64,000 bases of DNA, taken from Candidatus Bathyarchaeia archaeon. Lineage in GTDB: Archaea; Thermoproteota; Bathyarchaeia; Bathyarchaeales; Bathycorpusculaceae. Made by a program: the position numbers and the translations under genes. How positions within the stretch are numbered: position 1 is the stretch's first letter; each line of letters starts with the position of its first letter. The DNA lies in NCBI GenBank assembly GCA_030019335.1, contig JASEET010000002.1:1-64000 (forward strand), written 5' to 3'. Shown here in pieces: positions 2,818 to 60,265 of this stretch. Below the pieces are notes generated by a model. The model was not told the origin of the DNA, searched no databases, and saw nothing but the letters and a program-made list of their open reading frames with translations.

Positions 2818-2851
2818 CCAACCCGACATAGGCGAAAATAACCTATAATCC

Positions 2852-3411: not shown

Positions 3412-3644
3412 AGGAGCGGACTTGAAACATCATAGACAGGAATAGCCATCAAAGCCTAAACGCTTCTTCCTCTCCTCTTCCCACTCAGTGACAAAACTAG
3501 TTGTCAAAATCTCTTTATAAACCGTATAGAATGAAAAATCTAGGATAATTGTCGAGAAGAAAACAACATCATCTCTAGAGCAAACCAAACTTTGGCTAGA
3601 CATCTAACCTAAACCTTAAAAATTAACATAACAGCTTAAAAACC

Positions 3645-4007
3645 ATGCTAAGCACAACAGACATATTAACAACAATCAAAGAAGAAGAAACCTATAACAT
3701 CAAACAACTGGCAAAGAAGCTGGAAATACCAACTGAGGAGCTGGAAAAGATAATAAAAAACCTCAGGGAACACGACCTCTTAGAGTATAACGAACAAACA
3801 GGAGAAGTAAAGCTACCCTCATGGCTTATCAACATTGACAAGGAAGTTGAAAACATAAAACCCGCAACTGGAACCATACTTCTCCCAAAAAATCAGGAAA
3901 TAACACTACAAGACGTCGTCATCGGAAATTTCACAGATAAAGACCTTGAACTGAACGTCAGATTAAAGATGAAGCTGAAAGAAATCGCCTTATGCAAAGT
4001 AACCTAA
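3645..4007 (+). CDS. small winged-helix protein
   Basis: 120 residues from ATG 3645. Residues 1-55 form a helix-turn-helix: LTTIKEEETYNIKQLAKKL, then TEELEKIIKNLREHDLLEYN, followed by a wing-like EQTGEVKLPSWL. This layout is typical of archaeal winged-helix transcription regulators. The second half (ATGTILLPKNQEITLQDVVI, then NFTDKDLELNVRLKMKLKE) is a beta-rich domain that I do not recognise, possibly for sensing or dimerisation. An AT-rich leader with TTAAAAATTAA near 3617 may hold the promoter. Target unknown. Confidence 0.65.
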   Translation: MLSTTDILTTIKEEETYNIKQLAKKLEIPTEELEKIIKNLREHDLLEYNEQTGEVKLPSWLINIDKEVENIKPATGTILLPKNQEITLQDVVIGNFTDKDLELNVRLKMKLKEIALCKVT

Positions 4008-4259
4008 CCACGTAAAGCTGACTTAACTTCTTTCAACTTGTTCAAAAGAAGCTTACCCCTCTCCATTGTGCGATACACAACAGAACCGTCACCATGGCGC
4101 ATATTGCTGATTAACCCCTTATCCAAAGCCATAAACAAATACTTCCTAAGGGTTGAATAGCTCAAATTCGCCTTATACAAGATGAGTAATCCTCACACAA
4201 TTCAAACATACACTTAAAACATCCATGAGAATCTCAACTTCTCCCCTTCGACGCCCCAC
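4004..4259 (-). pseudogene. archaeal winged-helix regulator (HTH_45-like), frameshifted
   Basis: Reading the minus strand from GTG at 4257-4259 gives VGRRRGEVEILMDVLSVCLN, then CVRITHLV and a stop. Shifting one base near 4170 gives YKANLSYSTLRKYLFMALDK, GLISNMRHGDGSVVYRTMER, then GKLLLNKLKEVKSALRG and TAG at 4004-4006. Together these form the classic ~85-residue archaeal winged helix in which a THIMYKANLSY-like segment joins the two halves. A single indel therefore interrupts it. Its end overlaps the end of the convergent gene at 3645-4007 by a few bases. Confidence 0.7.
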
Positions 4260-4533
4260 GCTATCACCAACCTAATAACCAGAAGTATACATACATATTA
4301 GAGAAAACGCTAATAAAACTGCAACACTTCTACAAAGCCCTCCAAAACTTAGGCTACTACTTAATAAAAGAAATTCTGAGCATGTAAACTAACGAGTTCA
4401 ATAATAGAAGAGCTGAAGAATGAAAAACCTTTCACCCGCCTCCTGTCTTGGTGGTGCTTCCGAAAAGAATACTATAAATGTCGACGCTGCGGATAGGCAT
4501 GGAAAAAAAGGGAACCAAACTCGTGAATGTACG
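4260..4533 (+). other. gene-poor stretch with a possible short coding remnant
   Basis: No complete gene is convincing here. A plus-strand frame ending at TAA about 4387 reads YILEKTLIKLQHFYKALQNL, then GYYLIKEILSM, and looks protein-like but has no start. A later frame ending near 4492 contains a CRRCG-like motif. These are best regarded as decayed pieces in a region already rich in broken genes. No RNA gene or repeat was seen. Confidence 0.25.
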
Positions 4534-5085
4534 TTAAGAAGGGTATTTCTTTTCTTCAATGATGTCTCCGGAAACAGTTATCAAAAGGTTGTTTCCGTTA
4601 AGCGAAACCACCCTATGTTTTCTTTCCAAATTGTAAAATCTCCAGAATGATTCTGGAATCTGAAAAACCATTTTTCCTTCAGCTTCTTGTATAGGAATCT
4701 TTTCCAGAAAACAAGATATTTCTTTCCACTCAGGCACTTCACAGCCTGAAACACCTATCGTTGAACTGTCCAATGCGTAAACAAAAGCAGATTCATTCCA
4801 AACTGGATTAGCGCGCGCCAACAGTTCAGTTGGAACTTCTATTATGTTTAGCGGCTTCTGGTCTTTCGGATAAACAAGATTTACTCGCCTACCGTTTCTT
4901 ATAAGAACTCTAACGAAAATTTTATTTGCCTTGAGCAAACGTCTTATAGAGCCGTCAACATGACCAGCTTTCCATTTCAATTTCTTTCCTAACTCGTATT
5001 GAGAGAGACCTGGGTATTTCTCGATAATATCCAATAGAATTTCGTCTGATTCTCTGCCTCTTTTGTTTCGTTTTTGTTTTGTCAT
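4534..5085 (-). CDS. winged-helix DNA-binding protein, unknown role
   Basis: 183 residues. After a very basic start (MTKQKRNKRGRES) comes a MarR/Lrp-like winged helix: DEILLDIIEKYPGLSQYELG, then KKLKWKAGHVDGSIRRLL and KANKIFVRVLIRNGRR. The C-terminal half contains a FQIPESFWRFYNLERKHRVV segment followed by a short beta-rich end, suggestive of a swapped-hairpin (AbrB-like) fold, but that is a weak impression. It lies upstream of a terminase remnant on the same strand, so it could be a phage- or plasmid-derived regulator. The gene looks intact; a TATA-like AATAGTTGG/TATTTAAAT region precedes it near 5130-5150. Confidence 0.65.
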   Translation of the reverse strand: MTKQKRNKRGRESDEILLDIIEKYPGLSQYELGKKLKWKAGHVDGSIRRLLKANKIFVRVLIRNGRRVNLVYPKDQKPLNIIEVPTELLARANPVWNESAFVYALDSSTIGVSGCEVPEWKEISCFLEKIPIQEAEGKMVFQIPESFWRFYNLERKHRVVSLNGNNLLITVSGDIIEEKKYPS

Positions 5086-5134
5086 TTTCGTTTACTTACC
5101 TAACCCCTTACCTACATACTTACCTAACTAATAG

Positions 5135-5515
5135 TTGGTGAACTATTTAAATTTTTGGAATATTCCAAAACACTCAAATACGGGGGGCCATGTAAATAGG
5201 CTCATGTTTCGTTCTCAACCGCTTAATTGGATAAAACAGCACAGAAGTTTTACAAGTAAAGAATGGTTTGAAAGCCAAGTTAGATATGGCGTATGGATAA
5301 GAGAACGGAACAAGCCAAATCAATATCTGATATACGCAACGATCATCGAGAAAATAAAACGTTGCCCCACCCACGTTGTAGTTTATCACGCTCACGTCTT
5401 AAGAAAAGGAAGTTGACACTCTCCCCACTAAAGTCAGGAAGATTCTCGGCTCCTCAGCCTCTACGGCTTCATTATACCGAGTTTTGGGCTGTGTCAAGCC
5501 AGCCCCTGCTAAACC
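5135..5515. other. gene-poor stretch with a possible IS200/IS605-type end
   Basis: A plus-strand frame (5186-5416) encodes about 75 residues (MFRSQPLNWIKQHRSFTSKE, then WFESQVRYGVWIRERNKPNQ) without a recognised family. It is directly followed at 5414-5445 by GTTGACACTCTCCCC and a GGAAGATTCTCGG segment, resembling the GACACTC-CCC...GATTC ends often seen beside tnpB genes of IS200/IS605-like elements. No transposase gene is present. I regard this as a possible transposon scar next to the terminase remnant; nothing else is supported. Confidence 0.3.
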
Positions 5516-5776
5516 TTAAAAGAATATAAACGAGTCAGGCTTGCCTTCTGTTTCGTGCCTTGTTGCTGCAACGCTGAGGGCTAACGCCCAGAATTTGTCA
5601 TCATGCGTATTTTCAGGGTAATTAAACTTGATTTTTCCGTCCTTCGTGAGCTCAAACCGTTCGATGTTCAGCTCTGCAATTAAATCGCTGTCGTAAGGTA
5701 TTTTCAGCGTTTTTTGAACCATGCATTGTTTCAGATAACTCGCCATCTTCTCTTTCATTGGTTGTGTGAATTTCAA
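5516..5776 (-). pseudogene. C-terminal fragment of a phage-type terminase large subunit
   Basis: 86 residues matching the end of the RNase H-like nuclease domain of large terminases: IPYDSDLIAELNIERFELTK, then NYPENTHDDKFWALALSVAA. The HDD-[KR]-FWALALA signature contains the last metal-binding aspartate of the nuclease. Full-length large terminases are about 400-500 residues and also carry an ATPase motor; all of that is missing. The remnant marks a former provirus insertion. No portal, capsid or integrase gene is found nearby. Confidence 0.7.
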
Positions 5777-5836
5777 TCCATTTAAAACTTATAATCATTA
5801 AACAGGAAAAGAAATAGCGGGAAAAGAGGAAGTCAA

Positions 5837-6349
5837 ATGGGTTATATTTATTTATACACTGGGACGGGAGCTGGAAAAACAGCAAATGCTTTAGGCTTGG
5901 CACTGCGTTCTGTTGGACACAAACGAAAAGTCGTCATAATCCAGTTTCTAAAATGGTGGAAGAACACTGGTGAGTATAAGATTCGGAAAATGCTCGCGCC
6001 TTATTATGAAATCTACCAGTTTGGACGTGAAGGCTGGCATGGACTAGATAACTTGGGTGAAGAAGACAAAAGGTTAGCCTGCAAAGCCTTAAAATTCGCT
6101 GAGAAAATCATTAAGGAGAAAAAGCCGCATCTGCTGGTTCTAGACGAGATTAATTTGGCTTTACACTGCAAGCTTTTAGAAGTAAAAGAAGTTTTGGAAT
6201 TCCTGAACAAAATTCCAAAGAAAACCGATGTTGTTTTGACGGGAAGATTCGCCCCAAAAGAACTTATAGACCGAGCAGAGTTTGTAAACGAATTAGTTGA
6301 TGTTAAACATCCAAAGGAAATGGTTACAACAAAAGGAATACAATATTAA
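5837..6349 (+). CDS. cobA: cob(I)alamin adenosyltransferase (CobA/BtuR type)
   Basis: 170 residues. Transfers the adenosyl group of ATP to Co(I) corrinoid, forming adenosylcobalamin in the cytosol. P-loop YTGTGAGKTANALGLALRS at residues 7-25 uses the family's reversed-fold Walker A. Further motifs are VVIIQFLKWWKNTGE near 34, the LLVLDEINLAL Walker B near 98, and VVLTGR near 130. Length is typical of the archaeal form. It starts with ATG 5837, about 60 bases after a terminase remnant on the other strand. Shows that the cell uses or salvages corrinoid, as does the putative uptake pair at 33.6-35.0 kb. Confidence 0.93.
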   Translation: MGYIYLYTGTGAGKTANALGLALRSVGHKRKVVIIQFLKWWKNTGEYKIRKMLAPYYEIYQFGREGWHGLDNLGEEDKRLACKALKFAEKIIKEKKPHLLVLDEINLALHCKLLEVKEVLEFLNKIPKKTDVVLTGRFAPKELIDRAEFVNELVDVKHPKEMVTTKGIQY

Positions 6350-6412
6350 AATTTTCAAAAGGCTAAGATTTAACAATAATTTGAAAAGCTTAAAGAAGCT
6401 ATTGCTCATTTA

Positions 6413-7834
6413 GTGTTAATTCTATTGGTGAATCCATTGGGCAAGCACACTCACCCATATATTCCGAATTCTCTGCCGGAAATCAAACGAGAAATGATGC
6501 GGGAAATGGGCATAAAAAGCATAAATGAATTGTATGCGGATATTCCTGAAAAGTACCGTTTAAAAAAGCTGTTGAATCTTCCAGACGCCTTATCAGAATT
6601 TGAGGTGAAAACGCACGTAGAGAGTTTGCTTTCAAAGAACAAGACATGTAGTGACATGCCAGTATTTTTGGGTGCTGGGTGCTGGCCTCATTATGTTCCA
6701 GCTGCCGTTAAAGAAATTGTTCAACGTAGTGAGCTGCTTACCTCTTATACACCTTATCAGCCTGAAATTTCGCATGGTATGCTTCAAGCTCTCTTCGAAT
6801 ATCAGAGTATGATTTGTGAGCTAACCGGTATGGAAGTTGCCAACTGTTCCATGTATGACTGGGCTTCAGCATTGGGTGAAGCCGCTCGCATGGCATCCCG
6901 CCTGACAAGGCGAAGCGAGATTTTGATTCCTAAAATCATCCATCCGGAAAGAGCTGCAACGCTGCATGTTTATGATGAACCAGCTGGGCTCTCAGTAAAG
7001 CAGATTGCATACAACAGCGAAACCGGACAAATCAGCCTCGAAGACCTAAGAAGTAAAATTTCGGACAAAACAGCGGCAGTCTACATCGAGAATCCATCCT
7101 ATTTGGGCTTTATTGAAACGCAGGTTTACGAAATCAGTAAAGAGATACATGAGCATGGTGCCCTTTTTATAGTAGGTGTTGACCCGACGTCTCTTGGAAT
7201 TCTAAAACCACCAGGCGAATACGATGCGGACATTGTGGTTGGCGAAGCACAATCCTTGGGAAATTCTATGAATTTTGGCGGTCCACTTTTAGGAATATTT
7301 GCTTGTCGTGATGATTTGAAATTGATTAGGCAGATGCCCGGTCGCATAATTGGTATGACAACAACTCTAGATGGTAGTAGGCAAGGTTTTTGCATGGCTT
7401 TGCAGACACGTGAACAGCATATTAGACGTGAGAAAGCAACATCTAACATTTGTTCTAATGAGGCTCTATGCGCCGTAGCTGCGGCTGTTTACATGTCTTT
7501 GCTTGGACCAGAAGGCTTACGAGAACTTGGCGAAACAATCATGTATAAGGCAAATTACGCAATACATTTGCTCTCGAAAATAAATGGTGTCAAAACTCCA
7601 GTTTTCAAATCCGCCCACTTTAAGGAGTTCACTGTAAACTTTGATGGAACAGACTTAAGCGTTAAAAAGGTGCATGAAAAGCTTTTGCAGTGTGGGATTC
7701 ATGATGGTAAAGATGTCTCAAAGGAGTTTCCTGAGCTCGGCAAAACAGCCCTATACTGTGTAACTGAAATCCATTCTGAAGAGGATATTGAGCGTCTTGC
7801 AGCGACTTTAGAGGAGATTTTAATTGGAAGGTGA
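6413..7834 (+). CDS. gcvPA: glycine dehydrogenase (decarboxylating) subunit 1
   Basis: About 470 residues. With GcvPB it forms the PLP-dependent P-protein that decarboxylates glycine and passes the aminomethyl group to the lipoyl arm of GcvH. Family signatures: HPYIPNSLPEIKREMMREMG at the N-terminus, FLGAGCWPHYVPAAVKEI near 85, TSYTPYQPEISHGMLQALFE near 108, and EAQSLGNSMNFGGPLLGIFA near 275. As expected for the A subunit, the PLP lysine is in GcvPB. Start: GTG 6413 is possible, but GTG 6428 (MNPLGKHTHPYIP) better fits relatives. It overlaps gcvPB. No gcvT or gcvH is in the window. Confidence 0.95.
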   Translation: MLILLVNPLGKHTHPYIPNSLPEIKREMMREMGIKSINELYADIPEKYRLKKLLNLPDALSEFEVKTHVESLLSKNKTCSDMPVFLGAGCWPHYVPAAVKEIVQRSELLTSYTPYQPEISHGMLQALFEYQSMICELTGMEVANCSMYDWASALGEAARMASRLTRRSEILIPKIIHPERAATLHVYDEPAGLSVKQIAYNSETGQISLEDLRSKISDKTAAVYIENPSYLGFIETQVYEISKEIHEHGALFIVGVDPTSLGILKPPGEYDADIVVGEAQSLGNSMNFGGPLLGIFACRDDLKLIRQMPGRIIGMTTTLDGSRQGFCMALQTREQHIRREKATSNICSNEALCAVAAAVYMSLLGPEGLRELGETIMYKANYAIHLLSKINGVKTPVFKSAHFKEFTVNFDGTDLSVKKVHEKLLQCGIHDGKDVSKEFPELGKTALYCVTEIHSEEDIERLAATLEEILIGR

Positions 7835-7841
7835 AAATGGA

Positions 7842-9371
7842 ATGTTTAAGCAGGCAAAATGGAATGAGCCATTAATTTTTAAACTCGGGAGAAAAGGACG
7901 AAAAGGGCATATTCTGCCAAAAGTGGAAGATGAAGTTAAGCGAGCTGTTGGCGATGTGAACGCGCTTATACCAGAGAACATGAGACGCATAAGCCAGCTT
8001 AGGCTTCCAGAGCTTTCAGAGGTTGAAGTTACACGTCACTTTATGCGTTTGTCACAGATGAACTATGGCGTTGATTCTGGTTTGTATCCACTTGGAAGCT
8101 GCACAATGAAGTATAATCCAAAAATAAACGAGTTTCTTGCGAATCTGCCAACCATTGGCATGCTTCATCCTTATCAAAATGAAAGCACCGTGCAAGGCAT
8201 ACTTGAGATTCTTTATAGGCTTGAGCGTTGGCTTACTGAGATAACTGGCACCTATGAGATTTGTTTGCAGCCCGCTGCAGGTGCTCACGGCGAGTTTTTA
8301 GGCACATTGTTGATGCGTGCATATCATAAATTGAATGGGGAATGTAAAAAACGGAATGAAGTGATTGTTCCAGATTCTGCTCACGGCACAAACCCTGCAA
8401 GTGCGGCTATGGCTGGATTTAATGCAGTGGTTGTCCCTTCAGATGAGAATGGTTGTGTTGATTTAGAGGCGTTGAAGGCGGCTGTTTCTGAACGAACAGC
8501 AGGTCTAATGCTCACTAATCCTAATACTCTCGGAATTTTTGAAGAGAACATCGAGGAAATAGCCAAAATTGTTCATGAAACTGGCGGACTGCTCTACTAT
8601 GACGGTGCAAACCTTAATCCAATACTTGGTAAGGCTAGACCGGGCGACATGGGCTTCGACATAGTTCACATAAACATCCACAAGACTTTTAGTACGCCTC
8701 ATGGAGGAGGCGGTCCTGGAGCCGGCCCGGTTGGCGTTTCTGAAGAATTAACCAAGTTCTTGCCTGTTCCACGCATAGTTTTTGATGGTGAACGTTACCG
8801 CTTAGATTATGATAGGCCATACAGCATCGGAAAGATTCGGAGTTTTTATGGTAATGTTGCTGTTTTGTTGAAAGCTTACGCTTACATTTTGAGTTTAGGT
8901 GGTGAAGGCTTGAAGGAAGTGGCGGAAGTCTCTGTTTTGAACGCTAATTATCTAATGAAGAAACTTAAGGAGATTGAGGGATTGACGCTTCCATATATCA
9001 GTGAAAAACCAAGAAAACACGAGTGTGTCTTCAGTGCTAAGCCTTTAAAAAACGAGACTGGAGTTTCAGCCTTAAACATTGCTAAACGCTTGCTTGACTA
9101 TGGATTGCATGCACCAACAATTTACTTTCCGCTTATCGTTGATGAAGCATTAATGATTGAGCCTACGGAAACCTTTGAGAAGGAGGAGCTTGATCGCTTT
9201 GTTGAAGCTATGCGCAAGATCTGCGAAGAAGCATATACAAACCCCGAAGCAATCTTACAAGCACCACATAACACTTCTGTTTCGCGGTTGGATGAAGTGA
9301 AGGCTTCACATCCGAGGACTATGGCTTTGAGTTGGCGCATGTACCTGAAGAAGAATGGGCAGAATCTGTAG
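7842..9371 (+). CDS. gcvPB: glycine dehydrogenase (decarboxylating) subunit 2
   Basis: About 510 residues; the PLP-binding subunit of the two-part P-protein. The lysine sits in HINIHKTFSTPHGGGGPGAG near residue 285. Also seen are LYPLGSCTMKYNP near 82, LQPAAGAHGEFLGTLLMRAY near 140, and PDSAHGTNPASAAMAGF near 177. A frame opening at TTG 7824 exists, but ATG 7842 gives the usual MFKQAKWNEPLIF start and lies downstream of a GGAAGGTGA ribosome-binding site that overlaps the gcvPA stop. Operon with gcvPA. Complete and apparently intact. Confidence 0.95.
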   Translation: MFKQAKWNEPLIFKLGRKGRKGHILPKVEDEVKRAVGDVNALIPENMRRISQLRLPELSEVEVTRHFMRLSQMNYGVDSGLYPLGSCTMKYNPKINEFLANLPTIGMLHPYQNESTVQGILEILYRLERWLTEITGTYEICLQPAAGAHGEFLGTLLMRAYHKLNGECKKRNEVIVPDSAHGTNPASAAMAGFNAVVVPSDENGCVDLEALKAAVSERTAGLMLTNPNTLGIFEENIEEIAKIVHETGGLLYYDGANLNPILGKARPGDMGFDIVHINIHKTFSTPHGGGGPGAGPVGVSEELTKFLPVPRIVFDGERYRLDYDRPYSIGKIRSFYGNVAVLLKAYAYILSLGGEGLKEVAEVSVLNANYLMKKLKEIEGLTLPYISEKPRKHECVFSAKPLKNETGVSALNIAKRLLDYGLHAPTIYFPLIVDEALMIEPTETFEKEELDRFVEAMRKICEEAYTNPEAILQAPHNTSVSRLDEVKASHPRTMALSWRMYLKKNGQNL

Positions 9372-23709: not shown

Positions 23710-24819
23710 TTAGCCTTCAAACCCCAAAGTTTCTTCAATTTTCTCTTTAATCTTTCGCAGGAATTCAGCGGCTGGAGCACCGTCCACAATCCTGTGGTCA
23801 TATGAAAGGCTTAAAGTCATGAACGGTTTCGTTTCGATTTTTCCACTAATTACAATTGGTTTTTCAACGATTTTTCCAACGCCGAGTATGGCTGCTTCAG
23901 GTGGATTAATTATTGGTGTGAAGAATTCAACTCCATACATGCCTAGATTGGTGATTGTAAAGGTTCCGCCACTTAGGTCTTCCCTTGTAAGCTTTCCTTG
24001 TCTGGCTTTTTCCGTCAACTCCTTAATGGTTGCGTCTATTTCCTTCAAGGATTTCCTGTCAGCGTTCTGTATAACTGGAACAACTAAGCCGTATTCTGTG
24101 GCAACAGCCACACCCACGTTCACGTCCTCAAAAATTTTTATCTGGTTTTCTTCAAACATTGAGTTTATTATGGGATGTTCGGTTAATGCTTTTGCAACAG
24201 CCTTCACAAGAATAGCCGTATAAGACACTTCCAGTTTCTCGTGTAATTCTGTAGCTTTAGAAACGTCAACCTCCATCGTTATTGTGCTGTGTGGGGCAGT
24301 TTTAAAGCTCAAAGAAACCCGCTCGGCAGAGGTCTTTCTGAAACCACTTAGTGGAATGATTTCTTTGACTTTCGGCAGAATCCCACGGGTCTCCTCAACA
24401 AATCTTCTAACATCCTCTTCAACTATTCTTCCTTCAGGTCCGCTACCCTTAACAAGCGATAGGTCTATTCCGTACTCTCTTGCTAAACGTTTTGCAGCCG
24501 GAGAAGCCAAAACCCTCTTTTCAGCTTCCTCAACCGTTTGAGGTACTTCAGCAAGTATTTCTGTCTCTGAAAAAAGCTCGTCCGGAGCTGTTATAACGGC
24601 TAGAACCGCGTTAACTGGAGCGTCAACACCTTCCTCCACTAGAATTTTTCGCAGTATTCCAGAAGCTGGTGCTTCCAAATCATATGTTGCTTTTTCCGAA
24701 AGCACTTCTACTATTGGTTCACCCTTCTCAACAATGTCACCCTCTTTTTTGTACCATATGCCAACAGTGCCTTCCTTCATCGTTAGGCTGAGTCTCGGCA
24801 TAACAACTTTTGTTACCAT
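23710..24819 (-). CDS. dihydrolipoamide acyltransferase (E2) of a 2-oxoacid/acetoin dehydrogenase
   Basis: 369 residues in three parts. Lipoyl domain at 1-75 with the lipoylated lysine in VLSEKATYDLEAPASG near 44. Peripheral-subunit-binding domain at about 107-145: LASPAAKRLAREYGIDLSLV, then GSGPEGRIVEEDV. Catalytic domain at ~150-369 ending in LSYDHRIVDGAPAAEFL, the HxxxDG active site. It transfers an acyl group from E1 to CoA. Only one lipoyl domain. Its stop/starts are one base apart from E1-beta, so translated together. No E3 (lipoamide dehydrogenase) gene in the window. Needs lipoylation; see the radical SAM pair near 56-58 kb. Confidence 0.94.
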   Translation of the reverse strand: MVTKVVMPRLSLTMKEGTVGIWYKKEGDIVEKGEPIVEVLSEKATYDLEAPASGILRKILVEEGVDAPVNAVLAVITAPDELFSETEILAEVPQTVEEAEKRVLASPAAKRLAREYGIDLSLVKGSGPEGRIVEEDVRRFVEETRGILPKVKEIIPLSGFRKTSAERVSLSFKTAPHSTITMEVDVSKATELHEKLEVSYTAILVKAVAKALTEHPIINSMFEENQIKIFEDVNVGVAVATEYGLVVPVIQNADRKSLKEIDATIKELTEKARQGKLTREDLSGGTFTITNLGMYGVEFFTPIINPPEAAILGVGKIVEKPIVISGKIETKPFMTLSLSYDHRIVDGAPAAEFLRKIKEKIEETLGFEG

Positions 24820-24820
24820 T

Positions 24821-25795
24821 TTAGACGACTTCCTTAACTGCGTTGATTATGGCTTTCTCGTCTGGAATTACGTATTGTTCAAGCGGTGGGCTAAACGGGA
24901 TGGGCGTGTCTGGCTCGGCTACACGTTTTATCGGTGCATCCAAATAGTCTATAGCTTCCTCAGCCACTACAGCGGCGATTTCGGCGCTTACACCAGCGGT
25001 TTTGCAGTCTTCGTTTACAATAATTATTCTTCCAGTTTTCTTAACAGATTTGATTATTGCTTGCTTATCTAGTGGCGCCAAGGTTCTGGGGTCAACAACT
25101 TCTACGCTTATGCCTTCACCTTCAAGTTCTTCGGCTGCGTTAAGGGCTTTATGAACCATGTATAAAGTAGCCACCACTGTCACGTCTGCTCCCTCTCTTT
25201 TTATGTCCGCAATCCCGAAAGGAACCATGTATTCTTCTTCTGGAACCTCACCCTCGATGGGATACAACAGTTTATGTTCACAGAAGAATACGGGGTTGCT
25301 GCCACGTATAGCCGTTTTCAAAAGTCCTTTCGCATCATAGGGTGTTGATGGGACAGCCACGTACAAGCCTGGAACGTGCATGAACCACGCTTCTAGGCTT
25401 TGCGAGTGGTGAGCTGCTATGTTTACTCCGGCTCCGAAAGGTGTTCTAATCACAAGCGGAACCTTCACTTGACCACCGAACATGTAGTGTATTTTTGCTG
25501 CTTGGTTTGCAATCTGATCCATTGCTAAGGCTGTCAAGTCTCCAAACATTATTTCCGCTACTGGACGCATACCAGTTATTGCAGCACCTACAGCCGCGCC
25601 AATTATGGCGGATTCTGATATTGGCGTGTCTCTCACTCTTTCGTCTCCAAATTCCTCTGCCAATCCTTCCGTAACTTTGAAGGCTCCTCCCCAGTATCTG
25701 CCAACATCTTCGCCTAATAGAAAGACTGTTGGATCTCTGCGCATTTCTTCGCGTAATGCTTCGCGTAGTGCTTCTCTATAAGAGATTTTTCGCAT
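24821..25795 (-). CDS. 2-oxoacid/acetoin dehydrogenase E1 component, beta subunit
   Basis: 324 residues, full length for the family. LREEMRRDPTVFLLGEDVGR near the start contributes the Glu that activates thiamine diphosphate. VRDTPISESAIIGAAVGAAI near 54 and MFGGQVKVPLVIRTPFGAGV near 104 are standard transketolase-like motifs, and ISVEVVDPRTLAPLDKQAII lies in the C-terminal domain. Forms an alpha2beta2 tetramer with the product of the upstream gene. Substrate could be pyruvate, branched-chain 2-oxoacids or acetoin; motifs alone do not decide. Confidence 0.95.
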   Translation of the reverse strand: MRKISYREALREALREEMRRDPTVFLLGEDVGRYWGGAFKVTEGLAEEFGDERVRDTPISESAIIGAAVGAAITGMRPVAEIMFGDLTALAMDQIANQAAKIHYMFGGQVKVPLVIRTPFGAGVNIAAHHSQSLEAWFMHVPGLYVAVPSTPYDAKGLLKTAIRGSNPVFFCEHKLLYPIEGEVPEEEYMVPFGIADIKREGADVTVVATLYMVHKALNAAEELEGEGISVEVVDPRTLAPLDKQAIIKSVKKTGRIIIVNEDCKTAGVSAEIAAVVAEEAIDYLDAPIKRVAEPDTPIPFSPPLEQYVIPDEKAIINAVKEVV

Positions 25796-25810: not shown

Positions 25811-26776
25811 TCATGCGTAAACATCTTCTGAAGCTTCTTCTGGAGCTGGATATGGGCTTTCCATGGCAAACTTGACTGCTTCCTCAATTTCAGCTGAAAC
25901 TTCTTTTTCGATTTGCTGAATTTCAGCTTCCACCAAAGTATTTGTTTGTAAAAGTTTTTCCTTAAAACGTTTAATCGGGTCTTTCGCCAGCCATTCCTCA
26001 ACTTCTTCTTTAGGTCTATACTTAGCCAGGTCAATCCTCGAATGTCCCTTATGCCTATAAGTCTTACACTCAATAAGTGTAGGCCCTTCACCTTTTCTTG
26101 CTGTTTCCACAGCCTTCTGTGCAGCCTCATAAACCGCTAAAACATCGTTTCCATCCACAACCTCGCCGGGAATTCCATAGGCTGTGGCTCTGTCAGCGAC
26201 GTTTTTAATAGCCATGACTCTTGATTGGCGTGTTCCCATGGCGTAGAGGTTGTTTTCGCAAACAAAGATTACTGGGAGCTTCCATATGGCTGCCATGTTT
26301 ATGCTTTCGTGGAATGTTCCTTGGTTTGAGGCTCCTTCGCCGAAGAAACATGCCGCAACTTGGTCTGTGTCCCTAAGTTTTATGGATAAGCCAGCGCCAA
26401 CGGCTATTGGTATTCCCGCCCCAACCACAGCTGTTGCGCCTAACATGCCTATGCTGAAGTCTGCAATATGCATGGAACCCCCCTTGCCTTTACAGTAACC
26501 AGTCTTTTTGCCTAAAATCTCAGCCATAACCCGCTTTAATTCGGCGCCTTTCGCTATGCAATGTCCATGTCCCCTATGGGTGCTCGTAATGTAATCGTCT
26601 TTTCTGAGGTTGCCACAAACGCCTACTGCGACGGCTTCCTCTCCAGCATAAAGGTGTATTGTGCCTGGAACAAGGTTTTGAGCGTAAAGTTCGAAAACCT
26701 TCTCTTCGAAAAAGCGGATTTCAAGCATTTTCATATATATTTCAACAAGCTTTTCTTTCGTCAAAGTTAATGTCAA
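25811..26776 (-). CDS. 2-oxoacid/acetoin dehydrogenase E1 component, alpha subunit
   Basis: 321 residues. Thiamine-diphosphate motif GDG..N appears as FFGEGASNQGTFHESINMAA near residue 143. STHRGHGHCIAKGAELKRVM near 66, KGKGGSMHIADFSIGMLGAT near 96 and the phosphorylation-loop-like TYRHKGHSRIDLAKYRPKEE near 237 are all conserved. First gene of the E1-alpha/E1-beta/E2 operon. The GEGASNQGTFHESIN wording and the adjacent Zn-dehydrogenases are reminiscent of acetoin dehydrogenase (AcoA), but pyruvate dehydrogenase is equally possible. Confidence 0.95.
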   Translation of the reverse strand: MTLTLTKEKLVEIYMKMLEIRFFEEKVFELYAQNLVPGTIHLYAGEEAVAVGVCGNLRKDDYITSTHRGHGHCIAKGAELKRVMAEILGKKTGYCKGKGGSMHIADFSIGMLGATAVVGAGIPIAVGAGLSIKLRDTDQVAACFFGEGASNQGTFHESINMAAIWKLPVIFVCENNLYAMGTRQSRVMAIKNVADRATAYGIPGEVVDGNDVLAVYEAAQKAVETARKGEGPTLIECKTYRHKGHSRIDLAKYRPKEEVEEWLAKDPIKRFKEKLLQTNTLVEAEIQQIEKEVSAEIEEAVKFAMESPYPAPEEASEDVYA

Positions 26777-52604: not shown

Positions 52605-53864
52605 CTATTCTGTCGTCTGACAAAATTGTTGGGAACTAAAACTTTTCATTTTTATATTTCTCTTCGACAAGCTTACTATTAGGGTTATCATTGCAATTAT
52701 CGATGAAAGTACAATTGATACTACAAATGGTAAAATTGTTGATAATTGCCAAAGCGCAGCCCCTACTACTGGAAACGGCATGGAACTCAAGGCTGAGAGC
52801 GCATCCAGGGAGCCAAAAGCTAGGGCCTTATGTGATGCTTCGCTTTCCTTCGCTATGAGTGTCCTATAGCCTACATTATGAAAGGAGCCAATCATGGATG
52901 CGATAATGAGCGAACTTGCTGCGATGAATTTTGTTGGACTTAGGATAAAAAATAGTACGCCTATAGCGCCAACCAAATTGCCTATAAAAATCGAGGTTAA
53001 TGGGCCCCGCTTATCAGTGACTCTTCCAGCTGCAAGCTGAATCGTGGCTTGACTAATTGGGATTAAGGCGAAAACTAGGCCAATAGTAAATGCATCTATT
53101 TTAAGGACGCTGTCCATAAATATCGAATAATAAGGTCCATCGATGGAGGTTTCAACTCCGATTAAGACCGTTAAAAAAATAAGGAAAAAGTGTATCATGC
53201 TTAATTGCCTAAGCGATTTTAAAGGGCGAACACATTCTTCCATATATTTTCTTCCCTTCTCTCTAGTCTTAAGGGTTTCCTGTAAAAACAATCTAAAAAA
53301 GAGGGCGCCTATCACTAGAATCATACAGATTGCCAAAGCGTTAACTGCTGAGATTTCAAAAACGAAGCCTAAAATCAACGAGCCGATGCCGCATGCTGCT
53401 AAACTTGACATCTGAATGATTGAATAACATACTCCGATACTCTTCTCATCAACAGACTCAGCTGCGATAGCATAAATCGCAGGAGAACCTATAGTTGAAG
53501 CTCCCTCGTACATCAAAAAACCCGCCGTCAATAACGCAATACTATTTAAGGTCACGGCCAAAAAAAGCGAGAATATGCCAAGAAGATCAATTAACAAACT
53601 GGCCACTATAACTCTTTTTCTTCCAAACATATCAGAAACAACTCCACCAAGAAGAGGGCCAAAAAGCGAGAGTATATAGGTCATTGCAAAGAGAAAACCT
53701 ACCATCTCTATTCCACCAAATCTGTTAATAATCAATGATAAAGCCCAATAAAAAAAGCCGAAAACAGAACCAGTAAAAAAGGTCGAAAATACTAATACTA
53801 CGATGTTTCGTGAAGCAATTACACTTTTGATAGCTTGAACTTCTTTTTTAATTAGAGTTTTCAA
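52605..53864 (-). CDS. major facilitator superfamily transporter
   Basis: 419 residues with twelve predicted helices. The MFS loop motif between helices 2 and 3 is GGVVSDMFGRKRVIVASLLI near residue 74, and a second half-repeat AGRVTDKRGPLTSIFIGNLV near 278. Exporter-like. Its GTG/ATG start region overlaps the end of a radical SAM fragment by 4 bases, so they were once co-translated; an export role for a modified peptide is an inference. Complete. Confidence 0.9.
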   Translation of the reverse strand: MKTLIKKEVQAIKSVIASRNIVVLVFSTFFTGSVFGFFYWALSLIINRFGGIEMVGFLFAMTYILSLFGPLLGGVVSDMFGRKRVIVASLLIDLLGIFSLFLAVTLNSIALLTAGFLMYEGASTIGSPAIYAIAAESVDEKSIGVCYSIIQMSSLAACGIGSLILGFVFEISAVNALAICMILVIGALFFRLFLQETLKTREKGRKYMEECVRPLKSLRQLSMIHFFLIFLTVLIGVETSIDGPYYSIFMDSVLKIDAFTIGLVFALIPISQATIQLAAGRVTDKRGPLTSIFIGNLVGAIGVLFFILSPTKFIAASSLIIASMIGSFHNVGYRTLIAKESEASHKALAFGSLDALSALSSMPFPVVGAALWQLSTILPFVVSIVLSSIIAMITLIVSLSKRNIKMKSFSSQQFCQTTE

Positions 53865-54620
53865 ATGTACTTAATCACCCTTTCGTCGATAGTAAAATGA
53901 CTACAAAGATTTTTAATTTTCGGAAGGTCGTTTGCGTTGGCAAGTTGATTAACAAATGTTTTTATCAGGGGATCTCTAGCGCTTGTGTTGACTTTATTCC
54001 ACAGAATATGAGGGTCATCTTTTAGAAGATTTCCGACGATTAATGGTAAACCGTCTGAAACTCTTACTTGAGAATTTGGTTTTATTACGAACATTGGCTG
54101 AACATGTTCGACACGATCTTTTAAGTCTTCCAATATGCCAATGTCGATATACAACCTTTTCTTTTTAATATCATCTTTGTACTTATCTTGCAGATGTACT
54201 TTAATTTCGTCGCGTACAGATTGCTGTGGAATAATTAACTCTCTGTTCAAGTATGCTCTCCCAAACGGAACAACCTCGTTTATCCATATCCTTTGAACCC
54301 CTCGCGACAGAGCAAAGTCGATAATATCATCTATTTCATTAATATTAAAGTTCATAACTACGGAAATCAAACCAGTATCTATGGAAGCTTTTGTAAGTTC
54401 AACAATGCTATTCCGAGCTTTTTCCCACGCACCCTTTACTCCCACAAACTTATCGTGGGTCGATGGCTTAGAGCCATGTAAGCTTACACAAACGAAATTA
54501 CATTCGAGTTCATTGAGTCGTCTGACAGTATTTTCATTTATTAGAGTTCCGTTTTCAAACCTACCGAGAACCCCTAAAAAGGAAAGCGAAACGCTTCGGA
54601 AATCGCAAACACTTTTATCA
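53861..54620 (-). pseudogene. radical SAM protein lacking its N-terminus
   Basis: An open frame from about 54620 reads FLGVLGRFENGTLINENTVR, RLNELECNFVCVSLHGSKPS, THDKFVGVKGAWEKARNSI, then VVMNFNINEIDDIIDFALSR and RIWINEVVPFGRAYL. These are beta-3 to beta-6 of a SPASM-type radical SAM barrel (NGTLI, VSLHG...HD). The frame has no start upstream, and the CxxxCxxC motif is missing. The first valid start (GTG, 54443-54445) is inside the barrel. Degenerate or truncated copy next to an MFS gene. Confidence 0.7.
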
Positions 54621-54650
54621 ATTTAGCAAGGTTATAATAACTTGAGGAGA

Positions 54651-55103
54651 ATGGCAAAGAAAAATAACAACAAAGATGCCAGCACAGGCAGTTCAAGCAT
54701 CGAGGAATTAAGCAGAAAACTGGACTTGATAATCAATAGGCTTGAAACTCTTGAAGCTTTCATATTGAACAATCCAGAATATGCTGGATTAGCCCCATAC
54801 TTGCGCATGACTCGCGCTGGCTTAGGCTTGTATGGTGAACCATTAAAAATAGCTTCGAGACTTAGAACCGCTGAAAAGCATTTAAAGAAAAAGTGGGTAG
54901 CTCAAGACGATATTGCAAGATGCGTTGTTCAAGTCTTAGCATTGCATCAGAGATTAAACATTTCTGCAATAACTCGTCAGGTTCGAATGATGCGTGGAAA
55001 ATCTTCAAGAAGAATTATAAGGGAAAGAATTAAACGTTTGGAAGAAGAAGGCATTGTTCAACATGCTAAAGGGTACGGAAACGCTTACGAACTTGCAGAG
55101 TGA
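54651..55103 (+). CDS. small winged-helix-like regulator
   Basis: 150 residues. [20 protein letters not shown] near the start is a coiled coil; [20 protein letters not shown] near 85 and [20 protein letters not shown], then [20 protein letters not shown], form a basic helix-turn-helix with wing. ATG 54651 follows GAGGAGA (54644-54650). Archaeal proteins with this architecture act as transcription regulators, target unknown. Followed by two small helical proteins on the same strand. Confidence 0.7.
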
Positions 55104-55198: not shown

Positions 55199-55576
55199 AT
55201 GGAAATGATTGATGAAGAAAAAGAACATAAAAAGAGTAAAGTGGAAGATGCGGAAGAAGTCAAAGCTGTATTTGAAGTTTTTTCTAAAGAGATACCTGCA
55301 CTAATCAAGGGTATAATTGGCTCAGTATTCTCTGAAGAAGCTGGAAGAGACATGGGCAGAGCAGCTGGAGCATTCTACAAAGAACTTAAGGAAAGCGGTA
55401 TGCCAGACGAAATAGCAGTAAAAATGACTGAAAACTACATCAGCGTATTCACAAGCCTCGGTGACATAATGACAAAGTTCGGCAAGGGCGAGAAAGATTC
55501 TTCAGAAATAGAAAAAGAGATAGAAAGAAGAATCAAGAAGAAACTTGCAGAGAAAGGCTTAACAGAGGAAGAATAG
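55199..55576 (+). CDS. small acidic helical protein (pair member 1)
   Basis: 125 residues. EAVFEVFSKEIPALIKGIIG-like helix near 24, then GAFYKELKESGMPDEIAVKM and TENYISVFTSLGDIMTKFGK, and a charged tail. The central xxGMPxExAxKMxxxY segment is shared with the protein encoded just downstream. GGAGGTGAA lies before the start. No family recognised; the pairing suggests a complex or a membrane-associated stress protein. Confidence 0.6.
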   Translation: MEMIDEEKEHKKSKVEDAEEVKAVFEVFSKEIPALIKGIIGSVFSEEAGRDMGRAAGAFYKELKESGMPDEIAVKMTENYISVFTSLGDIMTKFGKGEKDSSEIEKEIERRIKKKLAEKGLTEEE

Positions 55577-55604: not shown

Positions 55605-55844
55605 ATGAAAATTTCAACCATAATAAAAGCAGGGCTACACTTATCAAAGTTAGTTTTGAATCTTGTTTTTATTTGGTTAACTTTGGGCTGGAAGGTTAGG
55701 AAGGCAAGGAAAGCCTTCGAAAAAGAGCTTATAAAAGGTGGAATGCCAAAGGAGGCTGCCAAAAAACTCGGAAAGAAGTACTCTTCCGTAAAGGACGAAG
55801 TCATGAAGCAACTTTGGAGTTCAGTCAAAAAGTTTAGAGGGTGA
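55605..55844 (+). CDS. small basic membrane-associated protein (pair member 2)
   Basis: 79 residues. One hydrophobic helix at about 12-28 (LSKLVLNLVFIWLTLGW), then KARKAFEKELIKGGMPKEAA and KKLGKKYSSVKDEVMKQLW. GMPKEAAKKLGKKY parallels GMPDEIAVKMTENY in the upstream protein. 28 bases separate the genes, so one transcript is likely. An acidic soluble plus basic membrane pair would fit a partner complex. Function unknown. Confidence 0.6.
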   Translation: MKISTIIKAGLHLSKLVLNLVFIWLTLGWKVRKARKAFEKELIKGGMPKEAAKKLGKKYSSVKDEVMKQLWSSVKKFRG

Positions 55845-56823
55845 AGTCTGAGTAAATTTGAGAACAGCAAAGTGAAGAAAAAGTTGTTTCATAACCAGGT
55901 TTTTCTGCGAATTTTATCGCTTCTTCTGTTGGAAAGGCTATAGCATTTACTCCAGCCTTTATGGCTAAAATATCCGTTTCTATTCGATGTTTTCCTTTCG
56001 GTCGCATGCATCCAAGCGTTAAAGGTGTTTTGGGAAACATTAATCTTGCCGTTGCTGTGACTTTTGCTATGTCCATTGGTTTTGGCGGGGCAACATTTTC
56101 CATTTCTGTTCCAGGTATAGGCATAAAGGCGATAATAACCAAGGCGGAAGGCGGATATTCTGAAATCATCTTTAAAGCGTTCAGTTCGCCTTTTAATTTT
56201 CCGTAGTGAAGCCCGACAATAACATGGGGCACAAAAGGAATACCAACTTCGTGTAATGCCCTTAAAGAATCTTCATAAGCTTTAACTGTTGTATTCAAAT
56301 TGTAAATTTCCCTTATCGTTTCATTCGACCCAATGATATCTATTAACGCAGCATCAACTCCAGCATTTCCAAGTCCTTCGGCTGTATTGAAATCAATTAT
56401 GCCTGAGTGAACAAATATGGTTAAACCCAATTCGCGTTTAACCTTCCCAATTACATCGATGAATTTTCCAAGGGGAACAGAACCGTCTGGTAGGCATCCG
56501 CCGCTTATTAGGCAACCTAAAGCTTCCTTACGCTTAAGCTGCACACACAGCTCAAACAGCGTTTCAGGTGTAGTAGTCGAATACATGGTGTTCAAAACCT
56601 TTCCACCGCAATGCTTGCACTTTAATGCACAGCCTTTGCCAGTAACCGAGATTGTTGGAAAATCTGCGGGTGAAGAATGGTAATAGCTTGTTTTGTAATA
56701 CATGAAGCTTGGAGCATAAAAATGAATTTTTTTCGTTTTGGAAACGAATGTACTTGCATCTAATAGTTTTGTAAGTTCTTTTTCATCCATGTGCCAAATA
56801 GTTTCGGGTGAAAGTTGTGTCAT
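55834..56823 (-). CDS. radical SAM protein, candidate archaeal lipoyl synthase subunit (LipS1/LipS2 type)
   Basis: 329 residues. CALKCKHC at residues 65-72 is the CxxxCxxC motif, followed by LISGGCLPDGSVPLGKFIDV near 109 and VPHVIVGLHYGKLKGELNAL near 198. A late GCMRPKGKHRIETDILAIKA near 276 and a C-terminal SSLCCSQ suggest an extra cluster. It was long annotated as a BioB-like protein (COG1856). Such proteins pair with a second radical SAM protein, as at 57344, in the two-subunit lipoyl synthase described in Thermococcus. The window's E2 and glycine decarboxylase need lipoyl groups. Subunit identity (1 or 2) I cannot assign. Confidence 0.75.
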   Translation of the reverse strand: MTQLSPETIWHMDEKELTKLLDASTFVSKTKKIHFYAPSFMYYKTSYYHSSPADFPTISVTGKGCALKCKHCGGKVLNTMYSTTTPETLFELCVQLKRKEALGCLISGGCLPDGSVPLGKFIDVIGKVKRELGLTIFVHSGIIDFNTAEGLGNAGVDAALIDIIGSNETIREIYNLNTTVKAYEDSLRALHEVGIPFVPHVIVGLHYGKLKGELNALKMISEYPPSALVIIAFMPIPGTEMENVAPPKPMDIAKVTATARLMFPKTPLTLGCMRPKGKHRIETDILAIKAGVNAIAFPTEEAIKFAEKPGYETTFSSLCCSQIYSDFTL

Positions 56824-56856
56824 CGCCTTATCTTAGAAAAACCCGCTATAGTTTGT

Positions 56857-57207
56857 TTAATAGTTTTCGTTTTCAGCTTCCTCTTCCTCTTCGCTGGCAC
56901 GCTTTGAAATTATGGGTATTACTTGTAAGGCGTCATCTATAGCCCTGATAGATTTTGTGATTTTCTGTAGGTACTTTTGGAAGTTGATTGCTTTAAACAC
57001 TGCTATGCCTCTTTCCGTAATGGCATACAGTGTTTTCTTATCCGAGAATCTTTCTTCGACAAGACCGTTTTTTATGAGAAAGTCTAGATATCGTCCTAGA
57101 ACGGTGCAACTCATGGTAGTTTTGTATGCTATGTTATCAACTGTTAAAGGCTTTTTCACCAAAACCTCTAGTATTGCCTCATATGATTCCAGCTTTGACC
57201 TTCGCAT
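56857..57207 (-). CDS. winged-helix transcription regulator
   Basis: 116 residues. SYEAILEVLVKKPLTVDNIA, YKTTMSCTVLGRYLDFLIKN then GLVEERFSDKKTLYAITERG IAVF is the standard archaeal HTH_45-like winged helix, followed by a coiled-coil helix and a very acidic end (SEEEEEAENENY). It sits between the two divergent lipoyl-synthase-like genes and could regulate them; that is inference. Confidence 0.82.
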   Translation of the reverse strand: MRRSKLESYEAILEVLVKKPLTVDNIAYKTTMSCTVLGRYLDFLIKNGLVEERFSDKKTLYAITERGIAVFKAINFQKYLQKITKSIRAIDDALQVIPIISKRASEEEEEAENENY

Positions 57208-57343
57208 TTATATACGTCCTTACTTTTCGGTTTATTCTGCTTTCATAAATCATTTGTGAATTCCAAATAATTAGTATAAAGCACACGCATTGTAACAGAT
57301 ATTAAGACTAACTTAACCCAACTATATTGAATCATTAGAGTGT

Positions 57344-58372
57344 GTGAAGTTGGCTATTTCCAAAGATCCGCCTAAAAAAGTTCGTGTTTCGTTAGGCTCT
57401 GCTATTGTTCTTGGGCTTCTGAAGGGGAAACTTGACGCTGCGCCTACAACTGCTTATTTGCTAACTTATAGTAAAGGTAAATGTGTTGCAAACTGTGGTT
57501 TTTGTCCGCAAGCTAGGGGGAGCCGCGGCAGGGCAGACATGCTTTCCAGGGTTTCATGGCCTGTTTTCTTAACAAATTATGTGCTTAATGGAATAGAGAA
57601 GGCTGTTAATAATGGCGAAATAAACCGTGTTTGTCTTCAAGCCTTGAACTATCCGGAAGTTTTCACACATCTGTTAGCCTTTACAAAAGCAATTTATCAA
57701 TACACAAAGGTTCCTATTTCGGTTTCATGTCAACCGTTGAACCGCGAAGACATGAAGCAGCTTGCAGATGCTGGAGCTGAAAGAATAGGCATTCCATTAG
57801 ATGTTGCCACTGAAGAACTGTTTGACAAGATTAAAGGGCCTGCTGCTGGAGGCCCATATAACTGGGAAAAACAGTTTAAACTTCTAAGCGATGCCGTTGA
57901 CATTTTTGGAAAGAGTAAAGTCAGCACGCATTTGATTGTTGGATTGGGGGAAACTGAGAAGGAAATGGTTGAAGCAGTTCAGAGATGTGTAGATATGGGG
58001 GTTCTTCCAGCATTGTTTGCATTTACACCAATTCCAGGAACGGCTCTAGAAAATAATTCTCAACCGCCAATTTCAGTGTATAGAAGTGTCCAGCTTGCTA
58101 GACACTTAATTTTCCATAGAATTGTAAGGTATGAGGATATGCATTTCGACGAGAAAGGCTGCATAAGTAATTTCGGCGTTGATAAAGAAGTTTTGATGAG
58201 GATAATTCAAAGGGGAGAACCCTTTCTCACCTCAGGATGCCCAAACTGCAACCGTCCATACTACAACGAAAAGCCAAGCGGACCTATCTACAATTACCCA
58301 AGAAAAATAAGCCAAAAAGAGTTATCGGAAATAGAAAGCCAACTAAGCCTACCTGGGGAGTTAAAATTTTGA
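57344..58372 (+). CDS. radical SAM protein, second candidate lipoyl synthase subunit (LipS1/LipS2 type)
   Basis: 342 residues. CVANCGFC at 47-54 is the CxxxCxxC motif in YLLTYSKGKCVANCGFCPQA. ISVSCQPLNREDMKQLADAG near 125, HLIVGLGETEKEMVEAVQRC near 198, and a C-terminal FLTSGCPNCNRPYYNEKPSG near 297 (CxxC for a second cluster) follow. It resembles the BioB/LipA fold without the usual LipA N-terminal cysteines, as in the archaeal LipS1/LipS2 pair. GTG 57344. It overlaps the polymerase gene start (TTGA at 58369-58372). Confidence 0.75.
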   Translation: MKLAISKDPPKKVRVSLGSAIVLGLLKGKLDAAPTTAYLLTYSKGKCVANCGFCPQARGSRGRADMLSRVSWPVFLTNYVLNGIEKAVNNGEINRVCLQALNYPEVFTHLLAFTKAIYQYTKVPISVSCQPLNREDMKQLADAGAERIGIPLDVATEELFDKIKGPAAGGPYNWEKQFKLLSDAVDIFGKSKVSTHLIVGLGETEKEMVEAVQRCVDMGVLPALFAFTPIPGTALENNSQPPISVYRSVQLARHLIFHRIVRYEDMHFDEKGCISNFGVDKEVLMRIIQRGEPFLTSGCPNCNRPYYNEKPSGPIYNYPRKISQKELSEIESQLSLPGELKF

Positions 58373-60265
58373 ACTCTCTTTGTCTTCTCGATGCTGCACT
58401 AACTGAAACAAACAAGGTAAAACTCAAATTTTTGGACACAAACGGAGAAATCAGAGAATTTATTGATAATCATTAGTAAACCATACTTTCTTGCCGCTAG
58501 TCCACTGACAGAAGAAGAAAAAGGAGCCATCAAATATTTCAGTGGAGAAACAGAAACCGTAGAAAAAGCTGACTTGTTTACTGGTGAATCGAGAGTTTTG
58601 GAAAAAGTTTCTTGGCCGAATCCTAAAATTGCCTTAAAGGCTGCGGGAAGTTTCCGTCAACCTTGGGAAAGCGAAGTGGACTTTCTAAAATCATATGTTT
58701 ATGATAAGGGTCTAATTTTCGGAGCATTACATTCTGAAAACAATTTACAGCCAATTTTTGATGCTCCAACAGCGGTAAAAGAAAAATTTGAAGAGAGATT
58801 TAAAGAAGTTAAAGCAAAAGACGCGTTAAAGTATGTTCAGATTCTTTATTGGCTTAATCTGCTTCTTCAACCAATCCCGAAACTGAACCCAGATTTCTTT
58901 GGGGTTAAAGAAATTGACCAAGAAAAGGTTTGTGCTACTTGGATGCTTTCTAGGATAGCTAACATCCCTTTGGCTGAAGCGTTTAACAGTAGACGGGTAA
59001 GTGAATGGATAAAATCGATGATTTACACTTATCTGCGAAAGAATAGGATTCTCATTCCAACTTCTGAGGAGTTGAGAAAAGGAAAACCGACACATAGAGT
59101 TGTTGGAGCTTTGACGGTTGCGCCTACTCCTGGAGTCTATTTTGGGACTGTTGTGTGCGATTTTGAAAGTCTATATCCAAGCTGCATTGACAGTTTCAAT
59201 TTGTCCTACGAAACAGTTGATTGCATCCATCCGGAATGTAGAAGCAACAAGATTCCAGACGTTGATTATCACGTTTGCACAAAACGCAGAGGATTCTATT
59301 CAATACTTGTTGGAGCCTTAAAGGAACTGCGAATCAGACTGTTCAAACCCAATTCAAAAGACAATTCTTTATCGGAGGAGGAGAGAAAAATTGCTGGTAC
59401 TGCGGCAAAACTGTTGAAGTTGATTACTGTTTCTAGTTATGGGGTTACGGTTAGAATTCACGGGGTGGCTTGTCCGCCACTTGCAGAAGCCATAACGGGT
59501 TATAGCCGCTATGCACTTAAGGAATCTTGGAAGATTGCAGAAGGAAAGGGTTTAAGACCTCTTTACGGCGATACGGATTCTCTGTTTTTAGATAATGCTT
59601 CAAATGAGCAAGTGGAATGGTTGATTAAGGCTGTTAGGGAACGGTTTAGTTTGGATTTGGCTGTGGAGAAACGCTACAATTTATGCGTTTTGCCGAAGGC
59701 AAAGAAGGCCTATTTTGGAATCCTGTCCGATGGAACACCTGACATTAAAGGAGTTACGCCGATAAAATCCAATTCGCCTAAGTTCGTAAACAGTGTATTT
59801 CAGCAATGTGTTAAGACGCTTTCAGCGGTGAAGAATCAAGAGGAATATGCACAGGCTAAGAAAGTGATTAAAGACATTGTTAAGAAAGCTATTGGCGATT
59901 TGAAGAATAGGCAGGTTAAGTTGGAAGATTTAATTTATACAGTGCGGCTTTATTTTGACCCTAACGAGAAAATAGCAGATATGAAGACTGCGGCTCAGCA
60001 GTACCAATGTGCTCTGCAACTGATAGATGCAAGTAAAAAATTGAAAAGATGGGACACCGTTTCCTTCATTAAAGTGAAGCCTTTCAAGTATAAGGAAAAA
60101 ATCTTCACAGTGAAACCAGCAGAATTCGTGAAAAGCCTAGTTGAAATAAATGTAGAGGATTATGTTCGAAATTTGCTAACTGCTTTGAACCAAACTTTTG
60201 AACCAATGAGCATCAAACTGGAGACGGAAAGGAAAACTGAAATTTCAAGATGGTTAACAAGCTAA
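58369..60265 (+). pseudogene. family-B DNA polymerase lacking an evident exonuclease; frame broken near its N-terminus
   Basis: Polymerase core is complete in motif layout: A, VVCDFESLYPSCIDSFN near 236; B, KLLKLITVSSYGVTVRIHG (usually ..NSxYG) near 340; C, LRPLYGDTDSLFLDNAS near 385. The N-terminal 35 codons lie in another frame: TTG 58369, after GGGGAG, gives MNSLCLLDAALTETNKVKLK, then FLDTNGEIREFIDNH and TAG 58474-58476. The remaining frame begins near TTG 58463 (ISKPYFLAASPL), so one extra base breaks it. Between the N-terminus and palm the usual DIE/exonuclease motifs are not seen. About 632 residues in total, versus roughly 780 for typical PolB. Confidence 0.75.

Follow-up and report, generated by a model that had tools for sequence, protein, structure and literature searches.

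A divergent LipS1/LipS2 lipoyl synthase gene pair in a Bathyarchaeota genome, with a linked Sso10a-like winged-helix gene and a conserved upstream element

Judged from their sequences, the two radical SAM genes at 55834-58372 of the window (the whole 64,000-nucleotide stretch of a Candidatus Bathyarchaeia archaeon analysed here) very probably encode the archaeal two-component lipoyl synthase LipS1/LipS2. The enzyme system itself is an ordinary instance of one already reported for archaea and is found in an expected host, since LipS1/LipS2 accompanied by LipM and without a ligase have already been described, Thermoproteota included. The small new part is the pairing of lipS1 with a winged-helix (HTH) gene that is likely to be autoregulated.

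Two radical SAM genes flanking a winged-helix gene

The locus contains three open frames, encoding a 329-aa radical SAM protein, a 116-aa winged-helix protein and a 342-aa radical SAM protein. The first two are co-oriented, with the HTH gene directly 5' of lipS1 and separated from it by 33 nt, whereas lipS2 is divergent. Because the HTH gene shares the strand of lipS1 and lies directly upstream of it, the divergent promoter region (57208-57343) is located between the HTH gene and lipS2. A sequence-only reading had described the locus as two BioB-like radical SAM genes flanking a winged-helix gene, and the open frames, together with the Pfam Radical_SAM and HTH_45 matches, confirm this layout. 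The closest records outside the organism's own genome are from Candidatus Bathyarchaeota. The features of the locus are:

55834..56823, minus strand: lipS1, radical SAM lipoyl synthase subunit, presumed to insert the second sulfur (C6); based on NF053742 and the cluster ligands
56857..57207, minus strand: HTH, Sso10a-like winged-helix regulator gene, probably cotranscribed with lipS1; based on PF14947, the structural model and Foldseek
57245..57269, minus strand: TATTTGGAATTCACAAATGATTTAT, conserved 25-bp promoter/operator-like element, 37 nt 5' of the HTH start
57344..58372, plus strand: lipS2, radical SAM lipoyl synthase subunit, presumed to insert the first sulfur (C8); based on NF053743 and the cluster ligands

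The 55834-56823 protein scores 243.3 bits against the NCBIfam LipS1 equivalog NF053742, only 13 bits above its cutoff of 230, and the 57344-58372 protein scores 355.6 bits against the LipS2 equivalog NF053743 (cutoff 270). Both proteins pass the Pfam Radical_SAM cutoff, and LipA (TIGR00510) is absent from the NCBIfam matches of either. The radical SAM motif CX3CX2C corresponds to C65/C69/C72 in LipS1 and to C47/C51/C54 in LipS2. The auxiliary-cluster ligands of LipS1 (C272, C319, C320 and H200) are, like its motif cysteines, invariant in 81 aligned homologues, and those of LipS2 (C97, C299, C302 and H196) are, like its motif cysteines, present in 38-41 of 41 homologues.

In the Thermococcus enzymes, mutagenesis has identified C27/C31/C34, C230, C276, C277 and possibly H159 as ligands in LipS1, and C39/C43/C46, C85, C276, C279 and probably H178 in LipS2 (PMC9585515). 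We matched ligands by order and spacing, relying on the curated models and on residue numbers taken from the literature, with the TK2109 and TK2248 sequences themselves outside the alignments; on this basis, C272/C319/C320/H200 of LipS1 correspond to C230/C276/C277/H159 of TkLipS1, and C97/C299/C302/H196 of LipS2 to C85/C276/C279/H178 of TkLipS2. The suggestion of the sequence-only reading that the pair is likely LipS1/LipS2 is thus borne out by the curated equivalog cutoffs, by the conservation of all known cluster ligands and by the absence of LipA; the comparison it rests on was with curated models, which both proteins pass, rather than with the TK2109/TK2248 sequences. When the proteins were compared by sequence with solved structures, no close relative was found for either: LipS1 weakly matched PylB and BioB, and LipS2 matched none.

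It is very improbable that one or both proteins are instead a biotin synthase, or some other sulfur-inserting enzyme of the BioB type. The BioB model TIGR00433 does match both (53.2 and 52.6 bits), LipS1 also has a BATS domain match, and the organism evidently uses biotin, as it encodes BirA and biotin carboxyl carrier proteins. However, neither BioB score comes near the 225-bit cutoff, whereas each protein exceeds its own LipS1 or LipS2 equivalog cutoff, the auxiliary-cluster Cys/His sets of both subunits are present and conserved, and the neighbours of lipS1 and lipS2 in relatives include gcvH and lipM. Membership of either protein in a BioB or other radical SAM clade was rejected on the model scores and ligand conservation.

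The system resembles that of Thermococcus kodakarensis (TK2109/TK2248; PMC9585515) in having both subunits, their radical SAM motifs and all mapped auxiliary-cluster ligands, and in lacking LipA. It differs in that lipS1 and lipS2 are divergent neighbours here but lie more than 130 genes apart in T. kodakarensis, in the ~38 extra residues that precede the CX3CX2C motif of the window LipS1, and in that no accessory LplB-type domain was found. The typical archaeal arrangement is lipS2-lplA-lplB-lipS1 (PMC10332631); the text of that study neither names Bathyarchaeota nor mentions a linked HTH gene, both of which are seen here.

Several other genes adjoin the locus. Two small genes without a Pfam match, at 54642-55103 (plus strand) and 55199-55576 (plus strand), face lipS1; they are kept beside lipS1 in about 20 relatives, and in one relative's locus (L113) they lie between lipS1 and gcvH. 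On the other side, 90 nt 3' of lipS2, is a gene for a 600-aa family B DNA polymerase (58463-60265, plus strand), a homologue of which adjoins lipS2 in several relatives. Its Pfam matches cover the polymerase domain only, with the DxxSLYPS and YGDTDS motifs intact, and its first ~176 residues have no exonuclease-domain match. Finally, an open frame at 53861-54553 (minus strand) that adjoins an MFS transporter gene is radical SAM/SPASM-like and apparently lacks its N-terminal part; no homologue of it was found near lipS1 among the relatives compared.

The lipoylation pathway in the genome and the order

Of the 151 sampled genomes of the order, 118 have a LipS1 that scores above its cutoff and 127 have such a LipS2. 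LipA (TIGR00510) has no match in the organism's own genome (completeness 100), nor in any of the 151, so that a canonical LipA elsewhere, a finding that the sequence-only reading had itself named as speaking against it, can be rejected. These results support a reliance of this Bathyarchaeota order on LipS1/LipS2.

A search of the genome with PF03099 retrieved two proteins, BirA and a stand-alone LplA/LipM-type catalytic domain, the latter being the single LplA/LipM candidate besides BirA. The BirA match (contig C4) was considered as a lipoate ligase and rejected, as it is encoded beside biotin carriers with an AMKMEN motif. The LplA/LipM-type protein (contig C22, 84481-85275) is encoded outside the window, ~26 kb beyond lipS2, and scores 182.7 bits against PF21948; the accessory ligase domain PF10437 was not found in the genome. 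A Cys preceding the sequence NGKKISGSAQ is conserved in its clustered homologues, and this residue may be the LipM nucleophile. The data support a pairing of LipS1/LipS2 with a stand-alone LipM-type protein in the window's genome. This combination of LipS1/LipS2 and a single LipM-type protein, with no lipoate:protein ligase, is like that reported in Thermoproteota, Asgardarchaeota and Thermoplasmatota (PMC10332631).

The lipoyl acceptors encoded are GcvH (contig C11) and, in the window, an E2 protein with a lipoyl domain. The lipoyl-domain E2 and the GcvPA/GcvPB pair that had been noted from the sequence are all present:

6413..7834, plus strand: gcvPA, subunit 1 of glycine dehydrogenase, which uses lipoyl GcvH; NF001696, 617 bits (cutoff 364)
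7824..9371, plus strand: gcvPB, subunit 2 of glycine dehydrogenase, which uses lipoyl GcvH; NF003346, 750 bits (cutoff 441)
23710..24819, minus strand: E2 acyltransferase with a lipoyl domain, likely lipoylation substrate; PF00364, 54.2 bits, and 2-oxoacid dehydrogenase E2 models
24821..25795, minus strand: E1-beta of a 2-oxoacid dehydrogenase complex; NF006667, 408 bits (cutoff 321)
25811..26776, minus strand: E1-alpha of a 2-oxoacid dehydrogenase complex; TIGR03182, 407 bits (cutoff 393.85)

As the LplA/LipM-type protein, GcvH and the lipoyl-domain E2 are all present, we infer a complete LipM-LipS2-LipS1 route. The LplA/LipM-type protein would attach octanoyl to a lysine in each of the two acceptors, GcvH and the E2 lipoyl domain, a step assigned to this stand-alone protein because no accessory LplB-type domain was found. 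LipS2 would then insert sulfur at C8, converting octanoyllysyl to 8-mercaptooctanoyllysyl, and LipS1 would insert sulfur at C6 to give lipoyl, with the sulfur presumably supplied in each case by the subunit's own auxiliary [4Fe-4S] cluster. The order of sulfur insertion and the auxiliary clusters are proposed because the ligands match those of the Thermococcus enzymes, in which LipS2 acts first, at C8, LipS1 acts second, at C6, and auxiliary clusters have been shown (PMC9585515).

In relatives, gcvH is found near lipS1 in five loci (L112, L113, L115, L116 and L119), and in many loci only a few kb separate lipM from lipS1 or lipS2; in L113, lipM, lipS2, lipS1 and gcvH all fall within 6.3 kb. 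For the question of which octanoyl donor archaeal LipM uses, left open in PMC10332631, clustered loci such as L113 are good material. Other relatives show further variations in gene content. A thioredoxin-reductase-like FAD protein encoded between lipS1 and lipS2 in L099 (5089-6021) is possibly LipT, a proposed electron donor, and L112 has a second, divergent lipS2-lipS1 pair (1715-6464) in one run with a gene for a 532-aa LplA-containing protein, possibly a fused ligase; this run adjoins a gcvH-like gene. In the window, shortly 3' of gcvPB, the 9780-10676 gene (plus strand) matches methanogenesis marker 8 (TIGR03275) at 232.5 bits, against a cutoff of 232.7.

The winged-helix protein and its upstream element

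The HTH protein matches PF14947 (HTH_45) at 47.4 bits. Its predicted structure (pLDDT 86.6) combines a winged helix with a long C-terminal helix, as in Sso10a/HTH_45 proteins, and contains no ligand-binding domain besides these. Foldseek matches include Sso10a (1r7j) and MarR/ArsR-type proteins, and by analogy with these structures the protein is probably a dimer. As its fold is similar but its score against the Sso10a family model NF053610 (44.7 bits) is under the cutoff of 60, we refer to it as Sso10a-like rather than as a member of the family. It differs from Sso10a/HTH_45 proteins not only in this score but also in its conserved position 5' of lipS1 and in its association with a specific conserved element. 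The HTH protein has an invariant Cys34, which we considered as a specific redox sensor and rejected; the residue is not distinctive, since HTH paralogs have a Cys at the equivalent position.

Among the 65 loci of the family (the window and L045-L108), 34 have an HTH homologue 5' of lipS1 on the same strand, and in ten of these the pair is kept with lipS2 elsewhere. The gap between the two genes is usually 23-76 nt (~550 nt in three loci), cotranscription is probable, and, mapped onto a LipS1 tree, the pairing takes no more than four changes. A clear HTH ortholog lies away from lipS1 in eight other genomes of the family and in one of another family, its neighbours there being GMP-synthase-type, hisS or other genes without an obvious connection to lipoylation. 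The g8, g13, g18 and g27 genomes have the HTH gene and its element among unrelated genes, while their lipS1 and lipS2 remain without it.

The sequence-only reading had pointed to the promoters as a place for HTH binding sites, and a conserved candidate, the 57245-57269 element, was indeed found 5' of the HTH gene. Across the family, the consensus RATTYNRRATTCAYAAAYNMTTTAT stands out amid otherwise diverged DNA and ends ~28-45 nt before the HTH start codon in nearly all loci. It contains two imperfect dyads, ATTYNRRAT and AYAAA-NNN-TTTAT. In a held-out test, all nine relocated HTH orthologs carried the element with at most two mismatches, 33-39 nt upstream, and a reversed control pattern had only 8 matches in the 151 genomes. 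The element also precedes HTH paralogs.

The organism's own genome was searched for the element in ~130 kb of fetched stretches, which included lipM, gcvH, gcvPA and the E2 operon, and with one whole-genome pattern search. Within the ~130 kb, and allowing up to four mismatches, gene-proximal sites occur only before the HTH gene and an HTH paralog, both at 37 nt; none was found at lipM, gcvH, gcvPA or the E2 operon. Around relocated lipS2 genes, too, no copy of the element was found. In relatives, some pilin-like genes and a nuclease-like gene likewise have the element in front of them, about as far from the start codon as in the HTH loci, and the 3' part of the element may therefore be a BRE/TATA core promoter.

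What the winged-helix protein may regulate

The element thus goes with the HTH gene rather than with the lipoyl genes, which makes autoregulation the best reading: we think it likely that the HTH protein controls its own gene through the putative site at 57245-57269. The protein, probably as a dimer, would bind the conserved dyad-containing element before its own gene and so autoregulate the HTH-lipS1 unit, with lipS1 affected through cotranscription; an effect on the divergent lipS2 promoter, ~75 nt from the element, is also possible. Autoregulation with local control fits better than a lipoylation regulon, because the element travels with the HTH gene, precedes its paralogs and is missing at other lipoyl genes of this genome. 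A regulon marked by the 25-bp element is not supported, since lipM, gcvH, gcvPA and the E2 operon lack such sites here and the element relocates together with the HTH gene.

The sequence-only reading had proposed that the HTH protein may control lipoylation, and this idea is weakly supported: the HTH-lipS1 pair occurs in about half of the family loci and is probably cotranscribed, but in other genera the element accompanies the HTH gene to unrelated places, and it was not found at the other lipoyl genes of this genome. In its strongest form, a dedicated regulator responding to the supply of lipoyl or octanoyl groups, with control over lipS1, lipS2 and a wider set of lipoyl genes, the proposal is quite unlikely. 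The same-strand pairing in 34 of 65 loci, maintained in the ten from which lipS2 has moved away, and the placement of the putative site inside the lipS1-lipS2 divergent promoter region are what one would expect of such a regulator; however, the lack of the element at the other lipoyl genes here and at relocated lipS2, the g8, g13, g18 and g27 genomes that keep the HTH gene and element apart from lipS1/lipS2, and the absence of a ligand-binding domain from the HTH model all argue against it. At the other extreme, the HTH protein could be a small, unrelated DNA-binding or chromatin-type protein whose gene lies upstream of lipS1 by chance, with the element serving as no more than the core promoter (BRE and TATA) of a shared transcript. 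The Sso10a-like fold and weak Sso10a-family score point this way, as do the fixed distance of the element from the start codon (30-45 nt) and its presence before some unrelated genes in relatives. We nevertheless consider this unlikely, as the specificity of the element far exceeds that of a generic promoter, as it relocates together with the HTH gene, and as the HTH-lipS1 pairing takes so few changes on the LipS1 tree. The specificity in ~130 kb likewise disfavours the view that it is a generic core promoter, with some unrelated genes that carry it in relatives weighing the other way.

Autoregulation with local control thus remains our preferred reading, and the HTH protein and its element form a concrete candidate regulator-site pair; a search of the papers available found no regulator of LipS1/LipS2. 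The broader proposal, that Bathyarchaeota of this family have in an autoregulated, lipS1-cotranscribed Sso10a-like winged-helix protein acting on a conserved 25-bp dyad-containing element in the lipS1-lipS2 divergent promoter region a form of transcriptional control of archaeal lipoyl synthesis, is tentative, and we regard it as possible but doubtful.

The nuclease-like gene that also carries the 25-bp element (its product containing VSIEK) is divergent from a glycoside-hydrolase-like gene and is found in many relatives, among them L237, L239, L240, L244 and L248. A nuclease-like homologue is also encoded between lipM and lipS2 in L113 (2032-2772), where the copy of the element is weaker, with three mismatches.
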